Part shown: positions 14,901 through 50,575 of the stretch, piece after piece
How positions within the stretch are numbered: the stretch's first letter is position 1
Layout of the letters: the number at the start of each line of letters is the position of its first letter
DNA from: Halichondria panicea
Taxonomy: Eukaryota; Porifera; Demospongiae; Suberitida; Halichondriidae
Direction: 5' to 3'
NCBI RefSeq assembly: GCF_963675165.1
Contig: NC_087377.1
Span: forward strand, 4,650,042 to 4,714,041
DNA: 64,000 bases
Notes under the pieces: generated by a model
Told to the model about the DNA's origin: nothing
Database searches by the model: none
The model's input: the letters and a program-made list of their open reading frames with translations, nothing else
Translations under genes and position numbers: made by a program

Positions 14901-17900
14901 CGGAGTGAAGAAACAGAAGTCAACACACAAACCGTACAAGATGCCACACCTACTGACTCTGAGGATAAAGCCGCTGTAGCCCACCAAAACAAACTAGCAC
15001 AAGTAATTCTTCGACTACAAAAACTGATAAAGAGCGGAAACTACTCCAAAATGGCCAAATGTCTTGGGAACACCTTGCTAAACATCAACGATGTCGGAGG
15101 CCAACCAGAATTCCTAGAAATGCTACCAGCCCTAAGCAATGGTCCTGCCATGTATCTAGTGTTCTTGGATCTGAGCAAGGAACTTGACAAGCCCTACAAT
15201 ATTCCCTTCAGTCGAGACGGCAAAGTCATTACTCCTTATAAATCAATGCACACAGTGAAAACCGCAGTCTCTCAAATCCTCTCATCCATTGCTAGCGTGC
15301 GTCACATGTCGGAAATTTCAAAGCCTCTCTTAAAAACTCCTCAGTTGAAAGACAAATTTGAAGCTTTTCTCACTGTCCCTCCAGTGGCAGCCCTAATAGG
15401 CACCCACAAAGATAAGCTTGGTGGAGACTCAACAGATGGTCCAGAAAAAGAACGATTGACCAGAGACAAAATGGTGGAGATAAACGCAGCATTGAAGCCC
15501 ATCACCAAAACTTTCGAGAACATTTTAGTTTTTCCTAAGTGTGGTGAACTAGAACATTCTGTGACTGGTTTAATTAAGAACTAGAACATTCCGTGGTAAA
15601 GGACCAGAACTTTATGTGTTAAGAACCTTCCAGAGGTTCAGTATTCTAGAACTTTGTGGGTGTTGTAGAACAATCTAGATCTTTGGTGCATGTGTCTGTA
15701 TAAAATAGCTAGAGAAGGAGTTATGTTGAGTTCTGTTCTCATGTTAAAGTTATAGAAGACTCTTATTTACTTGGATCGTGTTCTGTTTAAGTCAACTGCG
15801 AGCCTTGGCGCAGCCGGGGGCGCATGACAATTGGTGGCAGCGGTGGGATAGTCGAAGACAGTGGTTTTTCGAGACCCACAAATTTGAGAAGCGAATGGTA
15901 GATCTGTATGTCGGTGACAAGGACTGGCAGAATCTACAACCTAGGAGAATCGGTGAACGAAACAGAACAAGACGTGGAGAGTGACCAAGCTGTAATAACG
16001 ATGGCAGAGACAGGAACTGGAGTGACTGAACTTCTACAGATGCTGCTGGAAGATCGCCGGAGCCGTGACGAGGCAGAAACGGAAAGGGCCAGAGCAAGAG
16101 AAGAAGAGAACAGACAACGAGAGCGAGAACGAGCAGAAGAACAGGAACGTAGAGAGAGAGAAAGTGAACAAAGAATGCAAATGATGCAAAGTCAGGTGGA
16201 GATGATGAGAAACTGGATGGACCTAAATCAGAGTCGAGAGGAGATCAAGGCGAAACGAGCGGAAGATCTACGACATTTGAACCTAGCCAAACTCACGGAA
16301 AACGAAGACATTGAGGCATACTTGACTACGTTTGAGCGACTGATGACAGCCTTTGAAGTGAAAGAAGAGCACTGGGCCCATAAGTTAGCGCCACAACTTA
16401 TGGGGAGAGCCCAGCAGGCCTTTGCTGCAATGGATGTAGAGAAAGCTAAGAACTATGAGGACGTGAAAAGAGCTATACTGCAACGCTATGATATTAGCGA
16501 AGAAACGTACCGCAAACGCTTCCGAACTACGAAGAAGGCCGAAGGGGAGGCGTACCTGGAGCTCGCAACAAAACTGAGAGACCTCCTGGAGAAATGGACA
16601 GCAGGCTGCACCACGATGGAAGCACTCAAGGAGAAAATTGTAGTGGAGCAACTGATGGAGGGGATGCCTAGAGACCTGAGAATTTGGTTGGGCGACCGAA
16701 AGCCCACTACCGGAGAAGAAGCGGGAAGACTGGCCGACAGCTATGTTCATTCCCGTCAACTCGATCCTAAGGAGTTACCGCCACGAGAGACTCGTCGGCC
16801 CAGCAGTGAGAGCGGAGCAACCAAAACGTGCCACTACTGCAAGATAAAGGGCCATATTGCCAAAGACTGTAGGAAGGCTATGGCTGATCGAATGACAGAG
16901 AAAGGACGGAGGGAGGCCAACAAAACAAAGATGGAATGGAACAAAATCAAATGCTACAACTGCCAAGAGACCGGACATATTGCCGCAAATTGCCCTAGCA
17001 AGTCAAATCTATTCACAGAAGAAACTGAATTGGTGTACATGAATGAGGACAAGTTGGAGAAGAAAATCAACCCCCAGATTACACGATCCGGCACAGTGGA
17101 GGGAAAAGCAGTAGACGAGATTGTCCTTGACACCGGTTGTGCCCGTTCGATGGTGAGAAGTGATCTGCTACCACAGAAGAAGCAACTAGGACGAGTTCGC
17201 ATCCGATGTGCTCACGGAGACGTTCGAGAATATCCACTCGTAAGTGTCGAAATTGGCCTCGGAGAAGGAAGACACCAAATCGAAGCAGCAATTTCAAAGA
17301 CCCTCCCAGTACCAGTGCTACTCGGACGAGATGTGGCAGGCCTACTCGAAATGTTACAGAATAAGGAAGGGACAGTTCGGACTGAAGAAGCCCTTGCCGT
17401 AATGACCAGAGCCCAGGCCAAGAAAAACGAAGAAGAAAGAGTGGAACTGGAGAAGATACAACAACAGGAGGGAATCAAACAGCCTACTACCACGTCCGAC
17501 ACATCCACTGATGAGATGCCTGATGACCAAGTGGCCAAGATGGTTCCAAACACTCCCAACACTCCTGATGACCAACAAGCCGAGATGCTAACGGACTTGG
17601 ACGTAACCGATGACCAAATTGCTGAGATGCCAATTGGCGCAGAGATGGACCCAGATCTTTTTCTCGAAGTAAAGAAACACCAGCAACTAACTAGGAGAGA
17701 GAAGAGGCAGCAGAGGCGTGAAGTGGCTCAAAACAAGCAGACACACCCCTTGGACCTGTCCCCCATTGAGTTGCGACGAATGCAGCAAGAAGATGTCACG
17801 CTTAAAGGTATTCGAGAAGCAATGAACGGTGCTACTGGAGCCAGCAAGATGGTCTTTCACGAAGAAAATGGACTGATTTATCGTCAATGGATCTCACCCC

Positions 17901-20900
17901 ATGGCGAAGACAGCAGCCCGATACAGCAGTTGGTGCTACCAGAGTCGTGCCGTAGCCTAGTGATGTCCCTTGCTCACCATATTCCAATGGCTGGCCACAT
18001 GGGGCAGCGAAAGACCGTAGAACGGATTCTCCAGCGGTTCTATTGGCCGACAGTATTCGAAGATGTGAAGAAGCTATGCCAATCGTGCGAAGAGTGTCAG
18101 AGGACATCAAAGGGGAAAAAGCAGCGTGTACCAATGATTCCCCTACCCATCATTCGAGAGCCGTTTGAACGTATTGCTATGGATATCGTGGGTCCTCTTC
18201 CTCGTAGCCGCACGGGAAACCGATACATCCTGGTGATTTGCGACTATAGTACAAGGTACCCAGAAACTGTCCCCCTACGAACCATAGATGCTGAGCACGT
18301 AGCCAAGGAGCTGATAATGTTTTTCTCAAGAGTAGGCATACCCCGAGAGATCCTGACTGATCAAGGAGCTAATTTCACATCTGGATTGCTAGCAGAGCTC
18401 TACCGCTTGTTGAAGATACAGCCGATCCAGACCAGCCCTTACCACCCTCAAACGGACGGATTAGTAGAACGCTTCAATCAAACCTTGAAGTCCATGCTTC
18501 GCAAAACCGCCAATGAAGAAGGAAAAGACTGGGACCAACTAATTCCGTATTTGCTGTTTGCCTACCGTGAAGTACCCCAGTCATCAACCGGATTTTCTCC
18601 CTTCGAACTAATGTATGGAAGGCAGGTGCGAGGACCTCTTGATGTGCTCAAAGAATCGTGGGAATCTAGCAAGAAGTCTACAGAGAGTGTCGTTTCTTAT
18701 GTCCTGACGATTCAAGAAAAACTCGCCAAGATGTCGGAGCTAGCTTGTGAGAATCTGAAGAAGGCCCAAACAACCCAAAAGAAGTGGTATGATCGAAATG
18801 CACGAGAGAGGCAGCTGCAGGTAGAGGACAACGTACTAGTCCTTCTACCTTCCTCGACCAACAAACTCCTAGCGAAGTGGCAAGGTCCCTACCCCGTGAA
18901 GAAAGTGATTTCACCGGTGACATATGAAGTGGACATGTTCGATCACAAGAAGCGGAGAAGAGTCTTCCACATCAACATGTTGCGAAAGTGGAATACCCCC
19001 ACGATCCCAAACCTCTTGGCGGAGGAAGAGAGAGGAGAATTAACGGATGAACTCCCGTTGTGGAAAGAAAGTGACGGTATCACCAAGAAGATTGTCATGG
19101 ACAAGCGACTGGAAAAGACCCAACAGTATGACCTCCGTCAGCTAACCAACGAATTCGTAGAAGCTATGCGAGACACCCCAGGACGGACAGCAATCATTGA
19201 GCACGACATTGAAACCGGAACGGCACGCCCAATCAGGTTGCCTCCTTACCGCTTACCTCATGCCTATCGAGAGACAGTGAAGAAAGAAATTGCGGAAATG
19301 CTAGAACATGGAGTGATCGAGCCTTCGACAAGTGAATGGTCAGCCCCTATTGTATTGGTGAAGAAGAAAGATGGTACTATGCGATTCTGCGTTGACTATC
19401 GACGTCTAAATGGAGTTTCTGAGGCAGATGCATACCCAATGCCCCGCATTGACGAGATGATCGACAGACTAGGCCAAGCTAAGTACATCACCACTTTGGA
19501 TCTGACAAAAGGATACTGGCAGGTACCCCTCACCAAGAAAGCCCAGACGAAGACGGCATTTGTAACCCCTTTTGGTCTTTATCACTTCAATGTTATACCA
19601 TTTGGCTTGCAAGGCGCACCGGCAACTTTCCAGAGGCTAATGGACCGGGTACTGCAAGGACTGGAAGAATATGCTGCAGCATACCTAGATGATGTTGTAA
19701 TCTACAGCTCCAATTGGAAGGACCACCTCTACCATTTACGTCAGGTGCTGGAGCGGATCCAAGATGCCGGCCTAACCATGAAGCTCAGCAAATGTCAGTT
19801 TGGGATGGCCCACTGTATATACCTAGGCCATGTCGTTGGGAGTGGAGTGGTGAAACCAGAGGAAACAAAACTAGAGGCAATGATGGAATTTCCAAGACCA
19901 AAAACGAAAAAAGAAGTGCGTTGTTTCCTTGGATTAACTGGATATTACAGGAGGTTTATCCCGGATTTCGCCTCCATTGCCGCCCCCCTGTCCGACCTCA
20001 CCCGAAAGAATTTACCCTCAACAGTAATATGGACACCAGCTTGTGAGACAGCATTCCAGACCCTGAAGAAGCAGATGTTGTCACAGCCGATATTGCACAA
20101 TCCAGACTTTTCGAGAGCCTTTGTCCTCCAAACCGATGCATCCCAGCGAGGTGTAGGGGCAGTCCTCAGCCAAACTGATGGGGATGGCGCTGAACACCCA
20201 GTAGGATATTTTAGCCGAAAACTCCTTAACCGAGAAGAACACTACTCGACCGTGGAGAAGGAGTGCCTGGCAATTAAACTCGCTGTTGAAGCTTTCCGAG
20301 TCTACCTCCTAGGACGACCCTTTGTAATCCAGACGGACCATCACTCCCTGGAATGGATGGAGCGAATGAAAGAGAACAACAATCGTCTCATCCGATGGAG
20401 CCTGGCCTTGCAACCATTCAACTTTTCTGTCCGCTATCGGAAGGGCAAAGACAACCAAAACGCAGACGCCCTCTCCCGATTGCCTATTTCTCACCCCGAC
20501 ATGAATGTCGCAGGAGAAGGGGAGAGGAATGTGGTGAACTAGAACATTCTGTGACTGGTTTAATTAAGAACTAGAACATTCCGTGGTAAAGGACCAGAAC
20601 TTTATGTGTTAAGAACCTTCCAGAGGTTCAGTATTCTAGAACTTTGTGGGTGTTGTAGAACAATCTAGATCTTTGGTGCATGTGTCTGTATAAAATAGCT
20701 AGAGAAGGAGTTATGTTGAGTTCTGTTCTCATGTTAAAGTTATAGAAGACTCTTATTTACTTGGATCGTGTTCTGTTTAAGTCAACTGCGAGCCTTGGCG
20801 CAGCCGGGGGCGCATGACACTAAGCAAGAAAATGAGGCTTCTGATGACACATCTGATAAAGATGCAAATTGCTCTTCGGGCAGGATGTCCTTTTTTGCCC

Positions 20901-26530: not shown

Positions 26531-26532
26531 GG

Positions 26533-26593
26533 AAATTTGGTTGGTACTTGATAAAGACTCACGAATATAGCTGAGTCAGCAATAACTACAATA
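26533..26593 (+). repeat. Left terminal inverted repeat of the 14-kb element
   Basis: Contains AAATTTGGTTGGTACTTGAT and ACGAATATAGCTGAGTCAGC. It is matched on the opposite strand at 40474-40538. Outside AAATTT the two flanks stop matching in inverted orientation. Confidence 0.75.
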
Positions 26594-26607
26594 ATAATTA
26601 TCTTTAC

Positions 26608-28645
26608 TGTAATACATGGTTCCATGGTTCCTACTGTTCCAAGGTTCCATGGTTCCTACTGTTCCATGGTTCCAAGGTTCCACTGTCCCTACTGTTCCAT
26701 GGTTCCATGGTTCCTACTGTTCCATGGTTCCTACTGTTCCAAGGTTCCATGGTTCCTACTGTTCCATGGTTCCAAGGTTCCACTGTCCCTACTGTTCCAT
26801 GGTTCCATGGTTCCTACTGTTCCATGGTTCCTACTGTTCCAAGGTTCCATGGTTCCTACTGTTCCATGGTTCCAAGGTTCCACTGTCCCTACTGTTCCAT
26901 GGTTCCATGGTTCCTACTGTTCCATGGTTCCTACTGTTCCAAGGTTCCATGGTTCCTACTGTTCCATGGTTCCAAGGTTCCACTGTCCCTACTGTTCCAT
27001 GGTTCCATGGTTCCTACTGTTCCATGGTTCCTACTGTTCCATGGTTCCAAGGTTCCATGGTTATACTGTTCCATGGTTCCAAGGTTCCACTGTTCCTACT
27101 GTTCCATGGTTCCATGGTTCCACTGTTCCACTGTTCCATGGTTCCTACTGTTCCATGGTTCCATGGTTCCACTGTTCCACTGTTCCATGGTTCCTACTGT
27201 TCCATGGTTCCAAGGTTCCACTGTTCCTACTGTTCCATGGTTCCTACTGTTCCATGGTTCCAAGGTTCCATGGTTATACTGTTCCACGGTTCCAAGGTTC
27301 CACTGTTGCTACTGTTCCATGGTTCCTACTGTTCCATGGTTCCGTGGTTCCACTGTTCCTACTGTTCCATGGTTCCATGGTTCCAAGGTTCCAGTATTCC
27401 TACTGTTCCATGGTTCCAAGGTTCCACTGTTCCTACTATTCCATGGTTCCATAGTTCCACTGTTCCTACTGTTCCATGGTTCCTACTGTTCCATGGTTCC
27501 ATGGTTCCAAGGTTCCTACTGTTCCATGGTTCCTACTGTTCCATGGTTCCCACTGTTCCATGGTTCCCACTGTTCCATGGTTCCTACTGTTCCATGGTTC
27601 CCACTGTTCCATGGTTCCCACTGTTCCATGGTTCCTACTGTTCCATGGTTCCAAGGTTCCACTGTTCCTACTGTTCCATGGTTCCTACTGTTCCATGGTT
27701 CCAAGGTTCCATGGTTATACTGTTCCACGGTTCCAAGGTTCCACTGTTCCTACTGTTCCATGGTTCCATGGTTCCACTGTTCCTACTGTTCCATGGTTCC
27801 ATGGTTCCAAGGTTCCACTGTTCCTACTATTCCATGGTTCCATGGTTCCACTGTTCCTACTGTTCCATGGTTCCAAGGTTCCATGGTTTACTGTTCCATG
27901 GTTCCATGGTTCCACTGTTCCTACTGTTCCATGGTTCCAAGGTTCCACTGTCCTACTGTTCCATGGTTCCAAGGTTTCACTGTTCCTACTTTTCCATGGT
28001 TCCCAGGTTCCATGGTTCCTACTGTTCCATGGTTCCATGGTTCCAAGGTTCCACTGTTCCTACTGTTCCATGGTTCCAAGGTTCCATGGTTCCTACTGTT
28101 CCATGGTTCCAAGGTTCCATGGTTATACTGTTCCATGGTCCAAGGTTCCACTGTTCCTACTGTTCCATGGTTCCCACTGTTCCATGGTTCCTACTGTTCC
28201 ATGGTTCCCACTGTTCCATGGTTCCCACTGTTCCATGGTTCCCACTGTTTCATGGTTCCTACTGTTCCATATGGTTCCTTCCGTTCCATGGTTCCCACTG
28301 TTTCATGGTTCCTACTGTTCCATGGTTCCCTCCGTTCCACTGTTCCATCGTTCCTACTGTTCCATGGTTCCATGGTTCCAATTATGGTTCCCACTGTTCC
28401 ATGGTTCCCTCTCCGTTCCATGGTTCCGTCCGTTCCATGTTCCTACTGTTCTATGGCTCCTATACTGTTCCATGGTTCCTACTGTTCCATGGTTCCTACT
28501 GTTCCATAAATCCCACTGGTCCACTGTTCCATGCATGGTTCCTACTGTTCTGTGTTCCGTGCTGTTCCATTGTTCCATGGTTGTTCCAAGATTCCTACTG
28601 TTCCATGATTCCCACTGTTCCATGGCTCCTACTGTTAATGTTCCA
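26608..28645. repeat. Left octamer array (GTTCCNNN), with 100-bp higher-order repeats
   Basis: About 2 kb built from 8-9-bp units GTTCCATG, GTTCCAAG, GTTCCACT and GTTCCTACT. At the left edge the units form an exact 100-bp higher-order repeat: the marker CACTGTCCCT occurs at 26681, 26781, 26881 and 26981. The array becomes more degenerate toward 28640. It is free of stops in several frames on both strands, giving long false open frames of MVP/FHGS repeats; nothing supports translation. Confidence 0.95.
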
Positions 28646-29185
28646 TGCCACGTTCCATGGGTCCATCGGACCCTATACTGTCATGGTTCACTGTCCTGTG
28701 TCACACGGCATCATGTGGCATGGTTTCCACGCCATGCATGCACTTGGTTATTGTTGTGGATACATATTAACCACCATACATTACTGTGAGGGTTTAAATC
28801 CCTCCTTTTGGTGACCACAAACCACATGTTTGCACATGCTGGTTCATCTCCACATGTTTGCATGCTGGTTCTTGTAAGTATCTACATGATCTAGAATCCA
28901 GAGCTGTAAGTGTTGATCAATCAAGTTGTTGGAGGTGAGTTATTGATAGTTTTCAGTACATGTGCTATACTATTATTATAGGCTAGATTTAATAGAATCA
29001 TTGAGCCTCAGTCAAGTTTCCAGATTTCGTTGCCAGTGTCATCTATATGATATATATTATAGATATTCTAGAGACCCAGCAAGTTAATCAGAACTCAACA
29101 GAACTGGTGAGAGATTGCAATTATTATACAGCATGCTTGCATCCATTATGTAATAGATCAAGCTATATAAAAGGCCGGCCTGCAG
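28646..29185. other. Region between left array and ATPase gene
   Basis: No supported coding sequence. A TATATAAAAG box at 29164-29173 lies just before the first likely ATG of the ATPase gene; a short stretch near 29070-29107 ending at a GTGAGA donor could be an upstream non-coding exon. Confidence 0.4.
29164..29173 (+). promoter_or_regulatory. Possible TATA box of the ATPase gene
   Basis: TATATAAAAG is a strong TATA match 13 bases before the ATG at 29186. That spacing is short for a transcription start 25-30 bases downstream, so either the true start codon is later or the box is fortuitous. Confidence 0.3.
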
Positions 29186-32100
29186 ATGGACGACAATGAC
29201 ATAATTATTAGCCCCAGTCAGCAGAGCACTTCAAGTAGATCCAGTACCGCGACAGTAAGTGGTGTGTGTATGTATACAGACGTATCTGCATTTATGCTGC
29301 ACTGAGCTTTCATATTAATTAATACATGCTGCATGCAGACGTCGACATCAAGTCAGCCAAGTCAGCGAAGTGAATTCTTTGTGAACTGGGAGGATGCCAG
29401 TGTCCATGTCGTGTTTGAAGAGTGGTGAGCACTCCAACATCAAAGCAGATTTCGCGATCAAGTTGACTGGCATGATCGAAGCCGGGTGTAACACTGCATG
29501 GGTACATGGCACTCATGAAGAGAAGGATTAACATGCAAACAAAGTACGTTTTGCAGTCTAATTACATGCATGTAATGTACACGAGGTAGTACAAACAATA
29601 CAAACCAGATATCCAAATGGTGCAGGTAGTTGTACTCTGAACACCTATTGATTAGCTATAGAAGTTGTTATCCAACCATTTACAACTGAGTAGTAGAGTT
29701 AACCAGTAGTAGAGTAGTCAACAACACCCCTTGATCTGTGCACTGTGTATGTTTTGTGCATGTGCCCACTAGCCTTGATGCCCAATTATGCTCAAAATTT
29801 TGCCTATTAGTCTAGTCTCTAAGTCATGCAATTGTAGTCTTTAATTCTTACCAATTAGTCTTTAATTATTACCCAAAGTCTTTAATTATTACTCAAAATC
29901 ATCAACGAGAATTATACTGCAACATCACTGACGCTTCTATATAATCTTTTAAAGAACTATTATTGGTGAAAGAAATCTTAGAAAAGAGTCAACACTACGG
30001 TACTACTAGCACCTTCCATACGTATATACTCAGTAAGCCACTGCTATACTAGCCAGTCTAGCCACCATGTGGACCATGTGGCGTAAAGGTAAACTATTAG
30101 CATTTTCATGCTTAGTGCTTCTATAAATACTTCCTACCTAAATTTGATAAAAATTGCTAATATTTTTTGCCCTTATTAGGCTGGCATAATGCTCAATGCT
30201 CCACTGCACCTATTCCACTTGATAAACCACATTTACATCTTCAACACCCACACATTTTGTGCTTTCACAATTTTTGTCACATGGAGGGAGGTCTTCAGGC
30301 TGACCATGCAGTATACCCCTGGAAGGATACTGACATGTGATTTGAACCCTAGAGTATCCTCAGAGTTTCAATGTTTCACTGACCTAAAGAAATCGATAAC
30401 ATACCTAGATAACCCAATATTGTGTTAATACAGTAAAGTTCCCACCATATTAAATAATTGTATTTATTTATTTGCATACAGGGAATGTTTCTTTACCCTG
30501 GATTCCGCTCAGTTTCGAAGCAAGTTCATGAATCAAATCAATAGCTCTTTTGGCAGTGGGGGAATGTCAATAGCACTCAATGAGCAACAGTTTTCTTCCT
30601 TCATACAACACCTTAAAAATGAAAGTGGCGCTGGGTTGCCAATCAAAAAAGCCGCTTGTGTGATTGGCCGGCAACCTTGTAACGAAGTGTGGGTGCTGGG
30701 AAAGGACTTGCAGGTATATAATAATTTCAGTGTATCTAAGTCTATAAATATGCTGGACTATAAGAAAACGGTTTCAAAGAAAATGGGTCCAAAGTTTAAG
30801 CTTGTTCTATTTGGAAAAACTAAACTGGTCATTTTATTTCAATCACTTAATTAACCATTGTTCCTCTCTCGGGAGATTTAATATTCTATGAATGGACCCG
30901 GCACACTGTATATTGCACAACCAAAAAATTGCACCTACACGACATTGTCAAGCATAAATGTATGCATTGACAGTATACTATTTTTTTGCTTTCTAAATAG
31001 ATTGATTCTGAAGGCAGACAAGTCCAGGTATCGGAGAGCAAGTACATGTGGTTAGATCACAGTGTTGTCGGAGAAGTCACCAACATTCCATCACGAGACC
31101 TGCTTCCAGTGATCAAACTTCCCCTGACCAACACAGGGCTAGCAATAAAACGCTTGGTTTCTGCTCTGAAGCTCACCATCAGACACAATTACTTCAGTTC
31201 ACTGCTGACAGTTGTTGGAGGGGTCATGGCCATGCATTACACCTATCTGGTCAAGGTGTATAAAGGATGCCCCATAGTGTATGCCGTTGGTCCTTCTGAG
31301 ACCGGAAAGTCTACATCAATTAGGGCTGCTCTTGCAATCTCTGGTTAGTATATCATGCATGCAATTTGTGATACTATTTCATCCCTACACTTGCAGGATG
31401 TTCTCAGGCGATGTATGTCAAGGGTTCCAATGCATTCTTTCTCGAAAGATCGGCGGTATCTTCCTTGCCGTATGCCATTGATGACCCCCCCAAGGCTAGG
31501 TCCAAGAACAACTCTGTGGATGTGAATGACCTCATTGTGGACTTGCACGATGGCTGCAAAACAGCAAACCTCAGGAGTGGGCCCCTGAAACCTATCTCGA
31601 TTCCATTGGTGGCATCCAACTTCAGCCAGAAGCAGGAAGATAGGTATACTATGTATATATATATAATTCAGGGTGTCATACAGGGGAAGGGGAAAGGGGG
31701 ATATCCCCCCTCTAGCTCCAACCCCCCCCCCCCCTAAAATTTGCATTCAGGTACTAGTTGGGGTCCATAGCTGGCAATTTTACATACTAACAGGGTAACA
31801 ATAACAGTTTACCTTTTTTTAGCAAGTTACTTATTTCCCCCTCTACTCAAAATCCTGTATGACACCTTATAATTATGTGTGATTTTCTACAATAGAGTAA
31901 CTACACGTACGTGCACCGTGTCCTTTGTCCTGCCCACCGTTGGGCCCACAACAATGGAGGAAGAGGAAAATTGGGCAGAATTGGATGACATCATTAGTGG
32001 AGGGGAGCTGTCATCATGTATCGGTTGGGCTATTTCTATCGGAGAATGCCCAACCCTGCAGGAAGAAGTAATGGCCATCAAAGACAAGCTTAGGCACTCG

Positions 32101-33761
32101 GTTGAGGGGAGAAAGTTAAAGAATTGGGCCATTCTTCTCTACTTTGTGAAGAAGGTGAAATAAATTATATATATCTCGTAAATGTTTAATTGTCGTTGCA
32201 CATTTATTAGCTTCTTTGTGTTGGCAATGAACATGAGGACGAGGAACCCCAAGAATTCCTAAACATTTTGGATTATGTCCGAGAAGGTGTGCGCTCCACA
32301 CAGTCACCGACCACTCTGCCGACTATTCTGGACCCAGACAGTGTGTTAAGCACAACATTAACCAACATTCTCAACTTCTGTCGCACCAAAAGTCTGAAAG
32401 ATGTAAGGACCTATGTTTTTTCCCTGTTTGGTTGGTATATTACTGTATGTGATGTGATGGGCCATACGCCACTACAGACTTATAATTGAAACTTTTGTGT
32501 ATACGTAATAGGTGAACGTGTTCGCTCGCTGTGGGTGCTATGTCCGGAAGCAAAATAATCAACGAAAGGAAGTTTTTGCTGTCGTACTTGAAGATGTAGG
32601 ATCTGCTCTTACGTATTCTCGAGCCGAAGTTAAACATATTGTGGAAACCTCGAATTATGGGACGTCGAGTTCCCACCGCTTCCTGCAGGGCACTCATGAT
32701 TCAAAGAAGAGAAGATGTCTAGCGTTTTATGTCGACAACATTCCTGAAAAGCTAAGAAGCAAACTGTTGGACGGTAACTGCCAGCTAGTTTTTTGCATGC
32801 ATGACAATTATATTGGGTTAACCCCTTTCAGTCACAACAAAGGAGTCGTACAACATTCATTGGAGCCTCGATGACGATGATGGTGTAGGTGAGTGCACTT
32901 ATAGCTAGGAGTTATTGCAATAACTGTTGCATTGTGACGTCCCCATAGTATTACTAGTTTGACTAACCTTTATTAGGCTGGTGGAAAGTATCTCGACCCT
33001 GTTGACATTATAATATCTCAAACTCTCACTACCGTGCAAGGTTCAGGGGTTGTAGCTAGGTGGTATATGTGTGCGAAGTGCCTGTCAAAATTGTTTGGAC
33101 TACGCCTGCAGCTTGTTTTTAACTATTTTCATCATAAAACACATAATTGAAGTGTATTATATGTATGTCATTATAATTATGACTGCATGCAGAGGATGGC
33201 AAGGATGATGATCCCCTCCCCCCCAGCCACAAGGAGGACGACGACCCCCTCACCCCCAGCGACAAGGAGGACGACGACCCCCTCCCCACCGATAGTGAGA
33301 AGAAAGACAATGATCCTCCCCCCAGTGACAAGGAGGACGACGACCCCATCCCCAGCTTAGGTGACAAGAAAGATGACGATCTTCCCCCCAGTGACAAGGA
33401 CGACGACGACCCCCTCTCCAGCGTGGGTGACACTAAAGATGACGATCTTCCCCCCAGTGACAAGGAGGACGACGACCCCCTCCCCAGCGTGGGTGACACT
33501 AAAGATGACGATCTTCCCCCCAGTGACAAGGAGGACGACGACCCCGTAGGTGACACTAAAGATGACGATCCCTCCCCCAACGACAACAATCCCCCCCCTA
33601 GCGAGAAGGCCAAACGTAAGAGAATCACTTCAGAATTCGAACCTGCTGCTGCTGCAAAGAAAAAACGTTTGGGGGAAGCAAGTCTCTTACGTGATGGCCT
33701 CGGGAAGTCGTACACACCCAAAAATCTGAAGAGGCGTACCCGCAACTCTAAAAAGAACTAA
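29186..33761 (+). CDS. Element-borne P-loop ATPase
   Basis: Exons fitted by splice site and phase: 29186-29254, 29339-29424, 30482-30713, 31001-31343, 31397-31643, 31896-32154, 32211-32402, 32512-32773, 32832-32888, 33193-33761. The 5' two exons are least certain. Walker A is VGPSETGKSTSIRAALAI; the next exon has PYAIDDPP, a plausible Walker B, and SIPLVASNF. This resembles viral/plasmid-type helicase ATPases of the DUF927 kind (impression only). The C-terminus is a low-complexity acidic/proline tract of repeated KEDDDPLPS units, then basic nuclear-localisation-like KAKRKR and KKKR. It converges on the transposase gene with a ~300-base gap, so an accessory role in transposition (target choice or strand unwinding) is inferred. 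Confidence 0.65.
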
Positions 33762-33835
33762 CTGCCTTTGCATTGTCTGATTTCTAGTATTACGTGCAAC
33801 GTACCCCTTACTTTTGTTTGCTACAATGACATTCT

Positions 33836-33932
33836 TTATTGCTGGCTGATTCAGCGATAGTTTATCTATATGCAAAATATTATACGTACAACCCCTTTAT
33901 TATTATTATTGCTGGCTGATTCAGCGATAGTC
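33836..33932. repeat. Direct repeat between the two convergent genes
   Basis: TTGCTGGCTGATTCAGCGAT occurs twice, about 70 bases apart, in the ~300-base spacer between the convergent ATPase and transposase genes. Both genes would end transcripts here, so the repeats may affect 3' processing, or be binding sites. The GCTGATTCAGC core is itself palindromic. Confidence 0.7.
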
Positions 33933-34068
33933 CAGTATTATTCTTTACGTTAGGCTGTGTAATGTTCAAAAAATTTATGATCATAACAAAATGATTTTTC
34001 TCCTTACAATGTCTAGTAACTTTCAATATAGAGTCTATCAACACATTTTAAAACAAGCAATGTCCGGT

Positions 34069-36943
34069 TTACAATTGACCCTTCTTTAAATCATCATACT
34101 TAAGCTTACTTGCCACTTGAGATTCAGTTTTCGTAGGCAGTTTATGTTCGCAATAGGGAGCTATAGAGTAGTCCACCACATCATTGTATACTTTCTTTAT
34201 TTCTCCAACGTTTTTTTCTGTTGAAACAATTTCATACAATGTGATTGTCTCGAATTCAGACCACTGCCCTTTAGCCACGTCTTCGTTGCGATCCACAGCA
34301 AAACGTTTGCTGCTAGGTAAACTCATTTGTAAGTGATGTTTTCTACCCATCCTCTTAGCTGTTGTTGGTGATTCTGAAATAGGTTTCTTTCCATTTGGGT
34401 TGTGGCAATTTACACATTGACAATGTGAAGTACATTGCTGATTGTTTTTTAAACAGCAACACCTGGAAGCGTAAAATGGGCTGTTCTTGCAAGATGTGGA
34501 GCTAACTTTCTTGTTTGTCCCACATCTGCAGGAAATGTTAGTGCTGTTTTCTGTGTTTGCTGAAATTGGTGTATTTGCTGTGTTACTAACGAATGGTAGT
34601 GCAGCATCATAGTGTCCATTACCTAGAGAATTGTAGATCACGAATGCAGTAGCGCATGAATCTATGCTGCTTGTACATGTAGGCGTAACATAGGTAGTTG
34701 GAAGTCTGGTATCAGCCGAGAAAATCACAATAGAACACTGTAGACTATTAGCAATTGCAAGAGGCATTGCATTTCCCACGGGACTGATGTGAAAATTGGG
34801 CTGTAGAAATTTGTTGACCTCCGTCTCATAATCATCAACTAATGGGTCTATAAATGGTTCGTATTCAGCACGTCTACAACCAAGCATCTCAGTAACAAAC
34901 AATTGACGTAATTTCATAGCCAGGTTGCTGATATTTTCAGTTTCAATGCCATTGCTAATTCCCATGTTGCTGAGTATTAAATGCCACTCTTTCGATTGCG
35001 TTGCCACGTTTTTCGCAATGGCTGGGAAAAAACAGTTGCCGTCTCCTATTATAGGAGTGAAAATAAGCCCATTTGATTGCAATGTTTGACTTAGTTGTGA
35101 TTCTGAAGATACATCAGCAGAGCAGCCCTGTTCTAACCCACTGTTCGAAGCAAAAGGTTTAACAAGTTCTCCTAGCTTAACGAGACCCATGTACTTGAGT
35201 GACGTTAGGACGTGAAACTTTGTTAATGCATGTAGATAAATAACTTTTACCTCATCAAAATCAAACATGCAAGAGGATACATCAATCTCGCATTGGGTGT
35301 CAGTTTCTCGAGTTTCTCTGTCTTTGGGTAGTATTCCAATCGGTTGTAATGGCCCACAAGTAAGGTCATGTCTGAACCTACTGTTACAAATTGGTTCAGA
35401 CAAAGTCTTTGATTTCACTGTTTTGGCAGAGTTGTACGAATGAATTACAACTGTAAGTAGTGCATACGCTAAAAGAATACCAATTTTATTTCTATGTAAA
35501 ATTGAATTGATGTGATGGTGAAAGCGCTCATTACGATTTGTTCCTCCACCTATGGGAATATCACTTAAACAACCTTGAGATACATGCTTCTTTAGATTTG
35601 AAATAGCATGCATTGTCTCTTGCGTAAACACACCTAACCCCTTTTGATCCTTAACATTAATCCATTTGTTACTAAATGCCTCCATTTTGGACAGTATCAT
35701 AGCGGATCCAGGTGTTGAACATTTGCGTTTCACTTCGCTATCTCCATCAGTGCGGAATACCTGCGTTAGATCTTGTGTACATCTAAAATGAATATCACAC
35801 TTTCTGGATATTGTTCGTGTTATCCTCTGGACAGCATGGAATAGGTCCAACTTGACAGCAATGTCCATACCTAATACTGCCTGTATTTTTCTTCTTAGTT
35901 TACAACAGTCGTCAATGTATGCAGTTGTTAGGCCATGAGAGCGAGCTTTGAGGTTACGCAACAGTACCTCTATTGTATCAAAACTAGTCCCTCTAGTAAG
36001 TTGCCATGTTACAATTTGTCCACACTCATTCATTACTATAAAAAGGCTGTCATATTGATGTACCCATTTTCCATCATTTCGTACATATCCAATGTTTGCA
36101 GCAACCTTGAAAGTATGATCAAATGATATTGTACTTCCTAGTGGAATCTCACTTATTTCTCGTACATAAAGGTGCTCGTTCTGAAGAAACATAGCTAAAA
36201 AGCATTGTCTCAATATGTAGTCACTAGGGGTCTGTGAAAGGGGTATAGACCAAAAATCTGTTTCACTCACAGACTTTCCTAGTAGTAACTCGTGATTTCT
36301 GATCATGTCGCACACTTTTGCAAATGTAGTAAGTTTCTGCTCCATAATAACAGACTCAATGCTTTGAAATGTCATCCCTTTTATTACCAATGATGTGCAT
36401 GTGTCAATTAGAGAGGTAGTCATCCCAGTCCGTTTTAAAAGAATGAACGGCACAAGTGATGGTGATGGGAAGCGCCTAAGAATTAGCTCGTCATGAGCAA
36501 GCAGTCTGTGTTGGTTTGTGCACACATACACTGCACTTACCAAATACACAACATTATGCAAACCATGAATCACCCTTGGCTGAGCAGAAGAACTAGTACC
36601 ATCACACCAACGAGAATGCTGTGTTGGCAAATGACATTTTGGACAAAAAATTGAATGTGGAGGAAAAATCGAAGGGAAGGATACGTAAGGATTCCAAAAT
36701 ATTATCGATGGATTTTGAAGGAAGTGATCATTAGGAGATTCCGTATTACCAGGAAACGGGAACGGAACATTGATAACCACTCATGTAAACAGTCAGTTGC
36801 CTGACAGAATTATTATGATTAGAGATTAGTAGGTGACACTTATACATTTGTAAACACCAACCTTTAGAAATCTCCAACATCTCTTTGATTTGTTGTTGTA
36901 CATGCTCAGGTACAACTCCATTAACTTCTTGGACATGAGCCAT
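34069..36943 (-). CDS. DDE-like transposase fused to OTU, CXC and SANT-like domains
   Basis: Two exons on the minus strand: 36943-36862 (from MAHVQEVNGVV; an upstream in-frame ATG is at 36982) and 36779-34069, joined in phase 1. In the 903-residue second exon: a CPKC...WCDG zinc-like N-terminus (46-60); an RNase H-like core with FDHTFKV (D221), TAYIDDCCKLRRK (D290/291), DLFHAVQRI and GGTNRNERFHHHIN (E418); an OTU cysteine protease core with GDGNCFF (D580, C583) and GHYDAALP (H723); a Tesmin/TSO1-like CXC zinc domain (751-792); and a SANT/Myb-like tail (GQWSEFETITLYEIV). The core would cut and join DNA, CXC/SANT would bind it, and OTU may remove ubiquitin. No internal stops, so it looks intact. 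Confidence 0.7.
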
Positions 36944-37075
36944 GAGTACTAGATGTAGCAATATGAAACATATGGACAACATTGTTGACTATAGTTATCA
37001 AGCTTTTTTGTCTGTGGTTAGACAACTTAGAGGAGGGGCCAACACCATACATGGTTAGATCTACCCCCTAACCAC

Positions 37076-40000
37076 ATAACCATGGAACGTGGAACAGTGG
37101 GAACAGTAGGAACCATGGAACAGTAGGAACCATGGAACGATGGAACAGTGGGAAGCATACAACGGTAGCGGGAACCATGGAACAGTAGGAACCATGGAAC
37201 GATGGAAAGAAGGGAACCATGGAACAGGGGAACAGAGGGAACATGGAACAGAGGGCACCATGGAACAGTGGAACGGAGGGAACCATGGAACAGTGGGAAC
37301 CATGGAACAGTGGAACGGAGGGAACCATGGAACGGAGGGAACCATGGAACGGAGGGAACCATGGAAAGTAGGAATCATGGAACCATGGAACCATGGAACG
37401 AAGGGAACAATGGAACGGTGGAACGGAGGGAACCATGGAACGGAGGGATACATGGAACGGTGGGAACCATTGAACGAGGTAACCATGGAACAGTGGAACG
37501 AAGGGAACCATGGAACAGTGGGAACCATAGAGCGATAGAACGGAGGGAACCGTGGAACAGTGGAACGGAGGGAACCATGGAACAGTGGGAACCATGAAAC
37601 AGAAGAACGGTGGGAATCATGGAACCTTGGAGCAATAGGAACCCTGGAACGGTGGGAACAGTAGGAACCATGGAACAGTAAACCATGGAACAGTAGGAAC
37701 CTTGGAACCATGGAACAGAGGGATACATGGAAGGGTGGGAACCATGGAACAGAAGAAAGGTGGGAACAGTAGGAACATTGGAACAGTAGGAACCATGGAA
37801 CAGTATAGGAGCTATGGAACCTTGGAACCATGGAACCATGGAACAGTAGGAACCTTGGAACCATGGAACAGCAGGAACCATGGAACACTGGAACAGTAGG
37901 AACCATGGAACCTTGGAACAGTAGGAACCATGGAACAGTAGGAACCATGGAACCATGGAACTATGAAACTGTGGAACCATGGAACGCTTGGAACTATGGA
38001 ACCATGGAACGCTTGGAACCATGGAACCATGGAACGCTTGGAACCACAACTAAGGAACCATGGAACTATGGAACGCTTGGAACCGTGGAACTATGGAACG
38101 CTTAACCATGGAACTGTGGAACCACGGAACGCTTGGAACTGTGGAACCTTGGAACCATAGAACTATGGAACCATGGAACGCTTGGAACCATGGAACGCTT
38201 GGAACTATGGAACCATGGAACTGTGGAACCATGGAACTATGGAACACTTAGAACCATGGAATTGTCGAACCGTGGAACCATGGAACTATGGAACCATGGA
38301 ACTGTGGAACCATGGAACTATGGAACGCTTGGAACCATGGAACCATGGAACTGTGGAACCATGGAACTATGGAACGCTTGGAACCATGGAACGCTTGGAA
38401 CTATGGAACTGTGGAACCGTGGAACCATAGAACTGGAACCATGGAACGCTTGGAACTATGGAACCATGGAACTGTGGAACCATGGAACTATGGAACGCTT
38501 GGAACCATGGAACTGTGGAACCGTGGAACCATGGAACTATGGAACCATGGAACTGTGGAACCATGGAACTGTGGAACGATGGAACTATGGAACGCTTGGA
38601 ACCATGGAACGCTTGGAACCATGGAACCATGAAACTGTGGAACCGTGGAACCATGGAACTGTGGAACCATGGAACTATGGAACGCTTGGAACCATGGAAC
38701 CGTGGAACTGTGGAACCATGGAACCATGGAACTATGGAACCATGGAACCATGGAACCGTGGAACCGTGGAACTGTGGAACCATGGAACTATGGAACGCTT
38801 GGAACCATGGAACGCTTGGAACCATGGAACCGTGGAACCGTGGAACTATGGAACCATGGAACTGTGGAACCGTGGAACCGTGGGACCGTGGAACCATGGA
38901 ACTATGGAACCATGGAACCATGGAACTGTGGAACCGTGGAACCATGGAACTATGGAACCATGGAACTGTGGAACCATGGAACTATGGAACGCTTGGAACC
39001 ATGGAACGCTTGGAACCATGGAACCATGGAACTGTGGAACCGTGGAACCATGGACCATGGAACTGTGGAACTGTGGAACCATGGAACTGTGGAACCATGG
39101 AATTATGGAACGCTTGGAACCATGGAACTGTGAAACCGTGGAACCATGGAACTATGGAACCATGGAACGCTTGGAACTATGGAACCATGGAACTGTGGAA
39201 CCATGGAACTATGGAACGCTTGGAACCATGGAACGCTTGGAACTATGGAACGCTTGGAACCATGGAACTGTGGAACCGTGGAACCATGGAACCGTGGAAC
39301 TGTGGAACCATGGAACTATGGAACGCTTGGAACCGAACCATGGAACTGTGGAACTATGGAACTATGGAACGCTTGGAACCATGGAACCGTGGAACTGTGG
39401 AACCATGGAACCATGGAACTATGGAACCATGGAACCATGGAACCGTGGAACCATGGAACTGTGGAACCATGGAACTATGGAACGCTTGGAACCATGGAAC
39501 GCTTGGAACCGTGGAACCGTGGAACCGTGGAACTATGGAACCATGGAACTGTGGAACTGTGGAACCGTGGAACCATGGAACTGTGGAACCATGGAACTAT
39601 GGAACGCTTGGAACCATGGAATCGTGGAACTGTGGAACCGTGGAACCATGGAACCGTGGAACCGTGGAACCGTGGAACTGTGGAACTGTGGAACCATGGA
39701 ACTATGGAACGCTTGGAACCATGGAACGCTTGGAACCATGGAACCATGGAACTGTGGAACCATGGAACTATGGAACGCTTGGAACCATGGAACCGTGGAA
39801 CTGTGGAACCATGGAACCATGGAACTATGGAACCGTGGAACCGTGGAACTGTGGAACCATGGAACTATGGAATGCTTGGAACCATGGAACGCTTGGAACC
39901 ATGGAACCGTGGAACCGTGGAACCGTGGAACTATGGAACCATGGAACCATGGAACTGTGGAACTGTGGAACCGTGGAACCATGGAACTGTGGAACCATGG

Positions 40001-40457
40001 AACTATGGAACGCTTGGAACCATGGAATCATGGAACTTTGGAACCGTGGAACCATGGAACCGTGGAACCGTGGAACTGTGGAACCATGGAACTATGGAAC
40101 GCTTGGAACCATGGAACGCTTGGAACCATGGAACGCTTGGAACCATGGAACGCTTGGAACCATGGAACCATGGAACTGTGGAACATGGAACTATGGAACG
40201 CTTGGAACTATGGAACGCTTGGAACCATGGAACCATAGAACTGTGGAACCGTGGAACCATGGAACTATGGAACCATGGAACCGTAGAACTGTGGAACCGT
40301 GGAACTATGGAACGCTTGGAACCATGGAACCGTGGAACTATGGAACCATGGAACCATGGAACTGTAGAACTGTGGAACCATGGAACTATGGAACCATGGA
40401 ACTGTGGAACTATGGAATGCTTGGAACCATGGAACTATAGAACCATGGAACACTAAG
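37076..40457. repeat. Right octamer array (GGAACNNT)
   Basis: About 3.4 kb of 8-bp units, mainly GGAACCAT, GGAACTGT, GGAACCGT and GGAACTAT, with a recurring nonamer GGAACGCTT. It is the reverse complement type of the left array. The part nearest the transposase (37076-37960) carries GGAACAGTA/GGAACGGAGG variants closest to the left array; the outer part is dominated by the GCTT variant. Long stop-free frames on both strands (MELWNHGT, MVPSVPWF) are artefacts of the repeat. Confidence 0.95.
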
Positions 40458-40473
40458 AACTACTACATGCTAT

Positions 40474-40538
40474 ATTGTAGTTTATTGCTGACTCAGCTAT
40501 ATTCGTGAGTCTTATATCAAGTACCAACCGGAAATTTT
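40474..40538 (-). repeat. Right terminal inverted repeat of the 14-kb element
   Basis: Inverse of 26533-26593: contains TTATTGCTGACTCAGCTATA and ATATCAAGTACCAACCGG. It has a small insertion (ATAT against AT) and one extra A relative to the left copy. Confidence 0.75.
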
Positions 40539-42979: not shown

Positions 42980-44255
42980 CTAGTGACAAAACACAGTCAC
43001 ACATGCAAGGGGGGAGTACAGCGCAAATAGCACAAACTACAAAACACAGTCACACATGCAAGGGGGGAGTACAGCGCAAAAAGCACAAACTACAAAACAC
43101 AGTCACACATGCAAGGGGGGAGTACAGCGCAAAAAAACACAAACTACAAAACACAGTCACACATGCAAGGGAGGAGTACAGCGCAAACTACAAAACACCG
43201 TCACACATGCAAGGGGGGAGTACAGCGCAAAAAGCACAAACTACAAAACACAGTCACACATGCAAAGGAGGAGTACAGCGTAAAAAGCACAAACTACAAA
43301 ACACCGTCACACATGCAAGGGGGGAGTACAGCGCAAAAACTACAAAACACAGTCACACATGCGAGGGGAGTACAGCGCAAAAAGCTCAAACTACAAAACA
43401 CAGTCACACATGCTAGGGGGGAGTACAGCGCAAAAAGCACAAATTATAAAACATAGTCACACATGCAAGGGGGGAGTACAGCGCAAAAAGGACAAACTAC
43501 AAAACACAGTCACACATGCAAAGGAGGAGTACAGCGCAAAAAGCACAAACTACAAAACACCGTCACACATGCAAGGGGGGAGTACAGCGCAAAAAATACA
43601 AACTACAAAACACAGTCACACATGCGAGGGGAGTACAGCGCAAAAAGCTCAAACTACAAAACACAGTCACACATGCAAGGGGGGAGTACAGCGCAAAAAG
43701 CACAAACTACAAAACACAGTCACACAAGCAAGGGGGAAGTACAGCGCAAAAAAACACAAACTACAAAACACAGTCACACATGCAAGGGAGGAGTAAAGCG
43801 CAAAAAGCATAAACTACAAAACACAGTCACACATGCAAGGGGGGATAGTACATCGCAAAAAGCACACAAACTACAAAACACAGTCACACATGCAAGAGAG
43901 GAGTACAGCGCAAAAAGCACAAACTACAAAACACCGTCACACATGCAAGGGGGGAGTACAGCGCAAAAAAACACAAACTACAAAACACAGTCACACATGC
44001 AAGAGGGGAGTACAGCGCAAAAAGCTCAAACTACAAAACACAGTCACACATGCATGCTAGGGGGGAGTACAGCGCAAAAAGCACAAACTACAAAACACAG
44101 TCACACATGCTAGGGGGGAGTACAGCGCAAAAAGCACAAACTACAAAACACAGTCACACATGCAAGGGGGAAGTACAGCGCAAAAAACACAAACTACAAA
44201 ACACAGTCACACATGCAAGGGGGAGTACAGCGCAAAAAGCACAAACTACAAAACG
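42980..44255. repeat. ~52-bp minisatellite, about 24 copies
   Basis: The unit is roughly AAACTACAAAACACAGTCAC, then ACATGCAAGGGGGGAGTACA, then GCGCAAAAAGCAC, with length and base variants. By counting GTCACACA words I find about 24 copies. It lacks stops in places and creates false frames reading QNTVTHARGEYSAK; these should not be annotated as genes. Confidence 0.95.
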
Positions 44256-45247: not shown

Positions 45248-46375
45248 CTTGTGTGTGTGTGTGAGCGTGTCTGGTAAAGGGTTATCAAATCTACAAAAGG
45301 AAACATATTTTGTCTAATGGTTTGACGATCCTTTACCCACTGGCCATGTGCTTCATTCATCAGTTCTAATACTCTGAGAGCACATCCATTGGAGTGGTCC
45401 TACTAGCTAGCACGGTGCACTGGACACAATGGACCAACACTCTGACTCAGGGGAAAGGTGAGCGCTACCTTTAATATTACTAATTGATGACTTATTAATT
45501 TTCAGTAGAACTTTTATGTATAGTTGAGATTGTCCATGCAATTCTTTAGTTATTTGACTATCATTAATTTGCACAGCTTACTGCATACTGCAACAAGCTG
45601 AAATGGCTACAAACTCTCCTGCAATTCTGTGCACTTTGACCTCTGTGTTTGGTATCCCCCAGGTACAGGACGGACAGGACACCTCAACGGATTGTGTGTC
45701 TCTGGTGTCACTCCAGTGTCAGCAAGTACCGTTTCAGCTCAGGTGACAACTACCTATACTGTATAATCATGATTAGGTGATAATGCCTCTCAATGTGTTG
45801 CCCCCCCCAATTTGACTCTAATTTGACTCTTGAAGTGTTGTCCTCATACTGACTGGGGAATTAGACCTGGCCTTGCATATAGGGTGCCTGGGTGAGACTT
45901 CTCATAACTTGTTTAGGATACAACCTCATTGCTGTAGTAAACACGCCTAAGATGCCAAATTAATAAACGCTCTTTTGCAAAATGTACTAGCCGTCCTATA
46001 TAAGTATTGTCAGCCATTTTCCTCACACACCATCCCCCACACACATAAATTAACGATAATCTTCATATTGTGAAATTCTGTTGCAAGCGCAATCCACTGT
46101 ACAGTACCTACACCCCCTCACACACACACCACACACACAACACACACTAGGTGGCTTTGCTACATGGCGTCTTTGTGGTCAGAGCCAGTAATGGACGCAA
46201 GCTAGCTCTGAAGAGAGTGGCAGTGAACAATGATGCTGACCTCTACCTCACCAAACAAGAGATTGCTGTCACCAAGGCTCTGTCTGATTGCTCGTATTCT
46301 GTGACATACATTTCATCCATTACTAAGCAGATATCCAGTGATGTACACGAGGTCCTCATAGTAATGGAGTTATAT

Positions 46376-46855
46376 ACAGGTACCCCCTGAGTTATGTAGT
46401 GGTACCCCCTGAGTTATAGTGGTACCCCCTGAGTTATGTAGTTGTATACCCCCTGAGTTATAGTGGTACCCCCTGAATTATAGTGGTACCCCCTGAGTTA
46501 TGTAGTGGTATACCCCCTGAGTTATATACAGGTACCCCCTGAGTTATAGTGGTACCCCCTGAGTTATGTAGTGGTATACCCCCTGAGTTATGTAGTGGTA
46601 TACCCCCTGAGTTATATACAGGTACCCCCTGAGTTATGTAGTGGTACCCCCTGAGTTATAGTGGTACCCCCTGAATTATAGTGGTACCCCCTGAGTTATG
46701 TAGTGGTATACCCCCTGAGTTATATACAGGTACCCCCTGAATTATGTAGTGGTACCCCCTGAGTTATAGTGGTACCCCCTGAGTTATGTAGTGGTATACC
46801 CCCTGAGTTATGTAGTGGTATACCCCCTGAGTTATGTACAGGTACCCCCTGAGCC
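46376..46855. repeat. Intronic minisatellite, TACCCCCTGAGTTAT units
   Basis: About 24 copies of an 18-24-bp unit: TACCCCCTGAGTTAT followed by AGTGG, GTAGTGG or ATACAGG. The last exon bases TATATACAG plus the GTACCCC donor appear to be the founding unit, because the array repeats TTATATACAGGTACCCC; the splice donor is therefore copied several times downstream. Confidence 0.9.
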
Positions 46856-49981: not shown

Positions 49982-50189
49982 AGCCTTAAGTCCTAAGTGA
50001 CTGTATGTTGCTCTAATGGTACGTGTATTCTCCCCCTCTTTGTAGCGTATCTGTTGACCTCTGATCTTGAGCTGCGTCCCAGTATCTGGCAAGTGTCTGA
50101 GGTGGTGTCCAGGATCACAGGAACCACCAACCATGTCACTAATGTCTTTGTGAGTACCTTAGTGTTGGGTAGACCAACAATGGCTGTAT

Positions 50190-50575
50190 TATAGAGGGTG
50201 GCCTGCTAACACAGGTCCAAACACATGCTATGGAGACTTTGAGACCCATTAACCTGGCTGTGTTATAGAGGGTGGCCTGCTAACACAGGTCCAAACACAT
50301 GCTATGGAGACTTTGAGGCCCATTAACCTGGCTGTATTATAGAGAGTGGTCTGCTAACACAGGTCCAAACACATGCTATGGAGACTTTGGGACCCATTAA
50401 CCTGGCTGTATTATAGAGGGTGGCCTGCTAACACAGGTCCAAACACATGCTATGGAGACTTTGGGGCCCATTAACCTGGCTGTATTATAGAGGGTGGCCA
50501 GCTAACACAGGTCCAAACACATGCTATGGACACTTTGGGGCCCATTAACCTGGCTGTATTATAGAGGGTGCTTAT
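50190..50575. repeat. ~75-bp tandem repeat, about five copies
   Basis: The unit contains GGCTGTATTATAGAGGGTGG, then CTGCTAACACAGGTCCAAAC and ATGCTATGGAGACTTTG. The copies are nearly identical. A fragment, CCTGGCTGTATTATAGAGGG, reappears at 51281. It lies in an intron of the kinase gene after the exon ending at 50149. Confidence 0.9.

Follow-up and report, generated by a model that had tools for sequence, protein, structure and literature searches.

This locus raises the question whether two convergent genes and the long inverted arrays of an 8-bp word around them form one mobile element and, if so, what the arrays do. The locus lies in a window of 64,000 nucleotides of the sponge Halichondria panicea (C1:4650042-4714041, the whole stretch of DNA analysed), and comparisons were made with 131.5 Mb of genome sequence in 39 contigs. 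The mobile element spans positions 26539-40529 of the window (13,991 bp). It is interpreted here, with a probability of roughly 0.6, as a structurally complete Foldback-type cut-and-paste transposon with an IS256/Mutator-like core, whose arrays would be binding platforms that load transposase near the ends. The past mobility of the element, its structure as a unit, the linkage of arrays with ends and the existence of gene-less derivatives can all be read from the sequence.

The features, in window coordinates, are as follows.

26531..26538, no strand: left target-site duplication GGAAATTT, identical to 40530-40537
26539..26597, plus strand: left terminal inverted repeat, 94% identical to the inverted right end
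26615..28660, plus strand: left array of GTTCCANN units, spacing mostly 8 or 9 bp (Tandem Repeats Finder, TRF, and motif counts)
29186..33761, plus strand: P-loop ATPase gene, 9 exons, 752 amino acids (splice sites predicted from sequence)
33836..33931, no strand: 26-bp exact direct repeat pair between the genes (pair computed; likeness to the terminal repeat by eye)
34070..36943, minus strand: transposase gene, 2 exons, 930 amino acids (domain matches, spliced frame)
37078..40452, minus strand: right array, motif of the left array in opposite orientation (TRF, motif counts)
40471..40529, minus strand: right terminal inverted repeat (inverted match to the left end)
40530..40537, no strand: right target-site duplication GGAAATTT, identical to the left 8-mer

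Ends, octamer arrays and gene-less copies

The terminal inverted repeats are about 55-60 bp long and both begin with GGTTGGTACTTGAT, the outermost bases being 26539 and 40529. The 8-mer GGAAATTT abuts both ends in exact copy and is a target-site duplication. As a control, 1599 shifted comparisons were made for each element; the best of these reached 6/8 for the window element, against 8/8 at the true ends. A preliminary description of this DNA had proposed a transposon-like unit at 26533-40538. The unit is real, with inverted ends, an exact 8-bp duplication and copies elsewhere, but those limits lie a few bases too far out, in or beside the duplication.

The array unit is GTTCCANN, in opposite orientation at the two ends. 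TRF placed the left array at 26615-28496 with period 8 (score 1282), and with period 17 up to 28636 (score 1796); the right array was placed at 37078-40451 with period 8 (score 3015). The left region holds 216 copies of GTTCC and none of GGAAC, the right region 370 of GGAAC and none of GTTCC, and the 8.3 kb between the arrays only 5 and 3, respectively, so that the inverted octamer arrays described inside the terminal repeats are confirmed. For the six-base core GTTCCA and its complement the counts are 152 and 0 on the left and 0 and 334 on the right. Spacings of 8 and 9 bp occur 129 and 53 times in the left array and 265 and 68 times in the right one. A 30-base pattern of four units gave 1459 matches in the genome (726 + 733 by strand) and the reversed pattern gave none; 1404 of the matches (692 + 712) fall in the window and the 11 loci fetched with the end sequence, and the other 55 elsewhere. 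The octamer array is thus almost exclusive to this element.

The end sequence has 19 matches in the genome, two of them in the window; the other 17 are covered by the 11 fetched loci. Both ends are present in seven of these (L009-L013, L016 and L017) and arrays in nine (L009-L017), L014 being one-sided and L013 nearly so, with 6 versus 204 units. No match to either gene was found in the 11 loci at E<=0.001. Occurrence of ends and arrays apart from the genes, which the preliminary description had held to speak against an element, is therefore found to the letter, but ends and arrays stay together in 9/11, and the gene-less copies look like non-autonomous derivatives. Nine elements together hold 2940 core units, between 143 and 637 apiece, none of them misoriented. 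Five copies (L009, L011, L012, L016 and L017) consist almost solely of two inverted arms, as in Foldback elements, with 8-93 bp between the core units of the arms and no gene match. The other structural marks of Foldback elements, inverted ends with short tandem repeats and a length that varies between copies, are also present. One central spacer word is common to L009, L012, L015, L016 and L017, which therefore form one non-autonomous subfamily. L010 and L011 are not independent because they share flanks. An inverted duplication at L010 (99.95% over 1971 bp) was set aside because its two arms lie on either side of an N gap.

The target duplication is exact in the window element, L009 and L017 and 7/8 in L011, L012 and L013. 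It is thus present in six of the eight two-ended elements, and its length fits the 8-11 bp of the IS256/Mutator-like group.

The transposase and ATPase genes

The transposase gene is on the minus strand in two exons (36943-36862, and 36780 to a stop near 34070), and its 930 codons contain no internal stop. The ATPase gene, on the plus strand, has nine exons (29186-29254, 29339-29424, 30482-30713, 31001-31343, 31397-31643, 31896-32154, 32211-32402, 32512-32773 and 33193-33761), all with GT-AG borders, and encodes 752 amino acids. With splicing predicted from sequence both frames are open, in agreement with the two convergent, intact-looking genes first reported. The genes converge about 310 bp apart. 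Between them lies the 26-bp exact direct repeat (33836-33861 and 33906-33931), which by eye resembles the inner half of the terminal repeat. A relative on C17 (L051) likewise has two copies of the GCTGATTCAGC word.

The transposase consists, in order, of a DUF6729-like N-terminus, an IS256/Mutator-like DDE core, an OTU domain and an MSL2-like CXC domain. The core is RNase-H-like and of IS256 type; the closest solved fold for the catalytic half is that of ISCth4, a bacterial insertion sequence of the IS256 family (PDB 6xg8, 6xgx), at 10-13% identity, and integrase structures rank far below it (E about 0.01-0.06). Among 49 family members at E<=0.1, an OTU domain was matched in 29 and MSL2-CXC in 27. 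The DDE-OTU-CXC composition of the preliminary description accordingly holds across the family, while the main exon of the window copy alone gives sub-threshold C65/OTU matches. Transposase_mut was matched by 2/49 members (best E 0.0036), and the NCBIfam IS256 match (E 0.01) is far under the cut-off of that model. No integrase Pfam model, SANT domain, MULE model or FLYWCH zinc finger, the mark of Phantom, was matched by the 49 members. A KDZ transposase was rejected, since the 25 families that these members match at the same threshold include no KDZ model.

The transposase has 28 matches in the genome, grouped into 15 places including the window, and only the window copy is full-length in one frame. 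The relative at C17:4.10M is 71-94% identical and broken. In viral contigs 40 stretches and in prokaryote genomes 33 matched a pattern; these candidate relatives were rejected as none was confirmed, and a search for phage relatives gave no match. Arrays at L062, L070, L068/L075 and L076, suggested by TRF alone to be a further array family, were by eye in-frame, 27-bp-based repeats of the transposase C-terminus (...VTAQVIT...) and were discarded.

The predicted ATPase has the P-loop GPSETGKST, followed by an acidic repeat tail and a basic C-terminus. The motif supports the earlier assignment as a P-loop ATPase, but Pfam gives AAA_22 alone and weakly (E 0.077). Among the weak family matches a DNA primase/helicase profile ranks first (E 0.0019), and no match was found among PDB sequences at E<=10. 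These matches lend no support to the analogy with TnsC/MuB that had been drawn. No relative turned up at E<=0.001 when the protein collection was searched with a 564-amino-acid query, a search in which relatives split by introns and differing in length were not candidates. With the P-loop exon as query, four proteins from outside the genome were found (55-86% identity), two of which lack the second glycine of the P-loop.

Judged from the flanks of the transposase places, an ATPase match adjoins 3 of the 14 other than the window. On C17 it is 94% identical and in convergent order as in the window; on C10 it is 42% identical, on the same strand as the transposase fragment, and contains stops; at C8:3.567M it is 24% identical (E 1e-8) and partly overlaps the transposase match in a degraded region. 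The pairing of the two genes is therefore not unique to the window copy, in support of the preliminary description. The 11 loci that have ends but no transposase gave no ATPase match. The ATPase is probably an accessory factor encoded by the element and may act in assembly, unwinding or target choice.

A second family with a 9-bp array

A second family is represented at C1:5.25M by a transposase about 38% identical to that of the window, in two stop-free stretches. Transposase sequences at C1:5.25M, C15:3.49M and C8:3.59M are adjoined by a 9-bp array with constant TTACC, in which the core positions are conserved in 95-99.5% of units and the other positions in 56-69% (about 413 units from five stretches of four arrays). 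The four-unit pattern has 515 + 1296 matches in the genome, and the reversed control 22 + 0. The array is non-coding, because there are stops between transposase and array in L059 and irregular units of 7, 8, 10, 11 or 14 bp plus stops in L063 and L073; the array stretch of L059 itself is regular and stop-free.

The second family also has a copy on C3 and a second one on C15; its ends were read at C15, C8 and C1. On C15 GGTAA is found on one side of the transposase fragment and TTACC on the other, inside inverted ends, with 622 bases unread between the fetched pieces; the inversion rests on this one copy, where both sides were seen. On C8 and C1 the array adjoins the end on the single side seen. 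The outer 18 bp of the ends of the two families are identical at 14/18 positions at offset 0 (next best offset 8; shuffle p 1.5e-5). The C15 copy shows no target duplication. A short-word array beside a related end thus occurs at 3 of the 14 other transposase places, most of the rest having been read to a flank of about 1.5 kb only. That a distant relative has a different word at a like position suggests that docking sites are built up by the hundred at the ends of each element.

Some further observations concern these copies and their surroundings. The second-family copies L079 (C8) and L080 (C1) share the same outer flank, AGATGATGTAATCTAGGATTGGT, and therefore lie in one repeat or in duplicated DNA. 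The flank of the C15 copy (L063:2620-2680) belongs to a short high-copy element, of which the genome has numerous inverted pairs. At C23:20323-22617 (L076, L054) a transposase relative is interrupted by an insertion whose inverted arms, about 750 bp long and 84% identical, each contain a short GAAATGAG-type array in opposite orientation; it is perhaps another small foldback element. A 9-bp array of CTAGTTGCT type lies at L076:72-339 (C23), about 1 kb past a transposase 3' end.

Role of the arrays and relation to known elements

In the most likely reading, the arrays are amplified binding sites for the transposase, and the gene-less copies are moved in trans. The DNA-binding part of the transposase, either the CXC domain or the N-terminal zinc-binding DUF6729-like domain, would recognise GTTCCA in the window family and TTACC in the second. 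Hundreds of like-oriented sites would load many transposase molecules by each end, which would increase both the specificity for ends and the local transposase concentration and would make gene-less copies better competitors for transposase produced elsewhere. Array length would shift through unequal exchange or slippage, the core being kept while the 2-4 spacer bases drift. The ATPase would act as a probable accessory factor encoded by the element, and ubiquitin at the site may be the substrate of the OTU domain, as has been proposed for Ginger1 (PMC2836005).

An unlikely but serious alternative is that the arrays are passive minisatellites grown by slippage or unequal exchange, with an inverted symmetry that comes from the inverted ends and no role in transposition. 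Minisatellites are common in the window (53-, 22-, 74- and 105-bp units), and the wide variation in array length would suit such an origin. Within the octamer, positions 1-6 (GTTCCA) have the consensus base in 95-98% of units and positions 7 and 8 in about 57% (14 arrays, about 3360 units). This core conservation is suggestive only, because positions are likewise uneven in three other minisatellites of the window, down to 0.5-0.75, and because the array units are copies of one another; both points weigh against a binding role. CpG decay could account for part of the variation at positions 7-8. However, the bases that such decay cannot yield from CG make up 10.4% at position 7 (A/G) and 15.4% at position 8 (C/T), compared with transversions of 0.8-1.9% per core position. 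Passive growth also fits poorly with different words at the corresponding place in two families with related ends, and with an octamer array nearly confined to one element.

Other observations likewise count against the interpretation as a transposon with functional arrays. L018 and L019 have an end practically without array, so the array may be dispensable, or these two may have decayed. There is no target duplication at L016 or L010, and the shifted controls reach at least 7/8 in 4 (L009), 3 (L012) and 7 (L013) of the 1599 comparisons. The ends of the window element have GAGTC where the gene-less copies have GAATC, a difference of one central base; since the ends differ, the window copy need not be the one that drives the gene-less copies. 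No second complete copy with both genes was found, and genes, ends and arrays occur together in one copy only. The differing ends and the single complete copy, with the lack of gene matches in all 11 other end-bearing loci, would also be expected if an array-ended element that depends on another transposase had captured the two genes or received them by insertion, the present transposase being a passenger. This is very improbable, as the second family also joins transposase sequence, array and related end (C15, C1 and C8), the broken C17 relative keeps the convergent order of the two genes, and an 8-bp duplication suits an IS256/Mutator-like enzyme (8-10 bp in the passages on Tm1, PMC3169594). 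That the ATPase is a host gene acquired once and unrelated to transposition is doubtful. Eleven of the 14 other transposase places have no ATPase match, although most are fragments with about 1.5 kb of flank seen; gene order varies between C17 and C10, and half of the outside relatives lack the second P-loop glycine. Against this stand the matches at three levels of identity (94%, 42% and 24%) beside transposase places and the lack of any in the loci with ends but without transposase.

Comparison with published elements, as far as the cited passages go, places the transposon among Foldback-type elements. Both in the type of transposase and in layout the closest is Tm1 from root-knot nematodes, a Mutator/Foldback element of Phantom type (PMC3169594): its inverted ends hold short tandem motifs (13-15 bp) in varying number, and it has gene-less copies, an IS256/MULE-type transposase and target duplications of 8-10 bp. 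Unlike the window element, it has 9 bp as the commonest duplication, a FLYWCH zinc finger and shorter motif arrays, and the passages on it mention no OTU, CXC or ATPase, all of which are present here. Galileo, a P-superfamily Foldback-like element of Drosophila, shares the long, internally repetitive inverted ends, of which the outer 40 bp or so alone are conserved between species, and is the nearest tested case of binding inside repeats (PMC3688188). One site bound by its THAP domain lies about 70 bp from the end, and there are two others; Galileo differs in its P-type transposase with THAP, in ends of 0.5-1.2 kb and in having three mapped sites rather than hundreds of units. Tetris of Drosophila virilis is also a Foldback element with tandem repeats in inverted ends, which expand into satellite-like arrays, but its units are about 220 bp and it is apparently non-autonomous (PMC4079207). 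Rehavkus is MULE-related with a minisatellite near an end, but before the 3' end only, and has a PHD finger and a 9-bp duplication (PMC6446971). Ginger1 has an OTU protease domain C-terminal to a DDE transposase, whose core is of integrase type, and arrays are not mentioned in the passages on it (PMC2836005). Because tandem motifs inside inverted ends are known from Tm1, Galileo and Tetris, the layout has precedent and is not of a new kind, contrary to the preliminary description, which knew of no eukaryotic counterpart.

New as far as searched are the joining of this transposase architecture with the Foldback layout, kilobase arrays of 8- or 9-bp words that differ between related families, and the recurring ATPase. 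In the open-access literature no description was found that joins transposase, OTU, CXC domain and DNA transposon, DUF6729 with transposase, or OTU domain, helicase and transposase superfamily; Repbase was outside this scope, and the family may already be named there. We tentatively suggest, at less than even odds, an IS256/Mutator-like branch in which each family has its own word (GTTCCANN of 8 bp; RTTACCNNN of 9 bp), in hundreds of oriented sites inside both ends, the word and a CXC-type DNA-binding domain evolving together, and in which a primase/helicase-like ATPase encoded by the element is a working partner of the transposase; this would be an undescribed two-gene, array-ended eukaryotic system. 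The role of the repetitive ends of Foldback elements is an old question; in the papers cited here, Galileo alone has had binding inside the repeats mapped, at three sites (PMC3688188). With related ends and transposases but unlike words, the two families provide, within one genome, a natural swap experiment: binding of each transposase to its own word would mean that the arrays are recognition platforms. The recurring ATPase neighbour, if real, would give a eukaryotic cut-and-paste system a second enzyme encoded by the element.

Outside the element the window contains other minisatellites at 42986-44254 (53-bp units), 46367-46853 (22-bp units) and 50181-50570 (74-bp units). A neighbouring open frame of 1546 amino acids at 15902-20542 on the plus strand has the order SCAN, CCHC, integrase, reverse transcriptase and RNase H. 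The integrase precedes the reverse transcriptase, which we take to be the order of Gmr1-like Gypsy elements.
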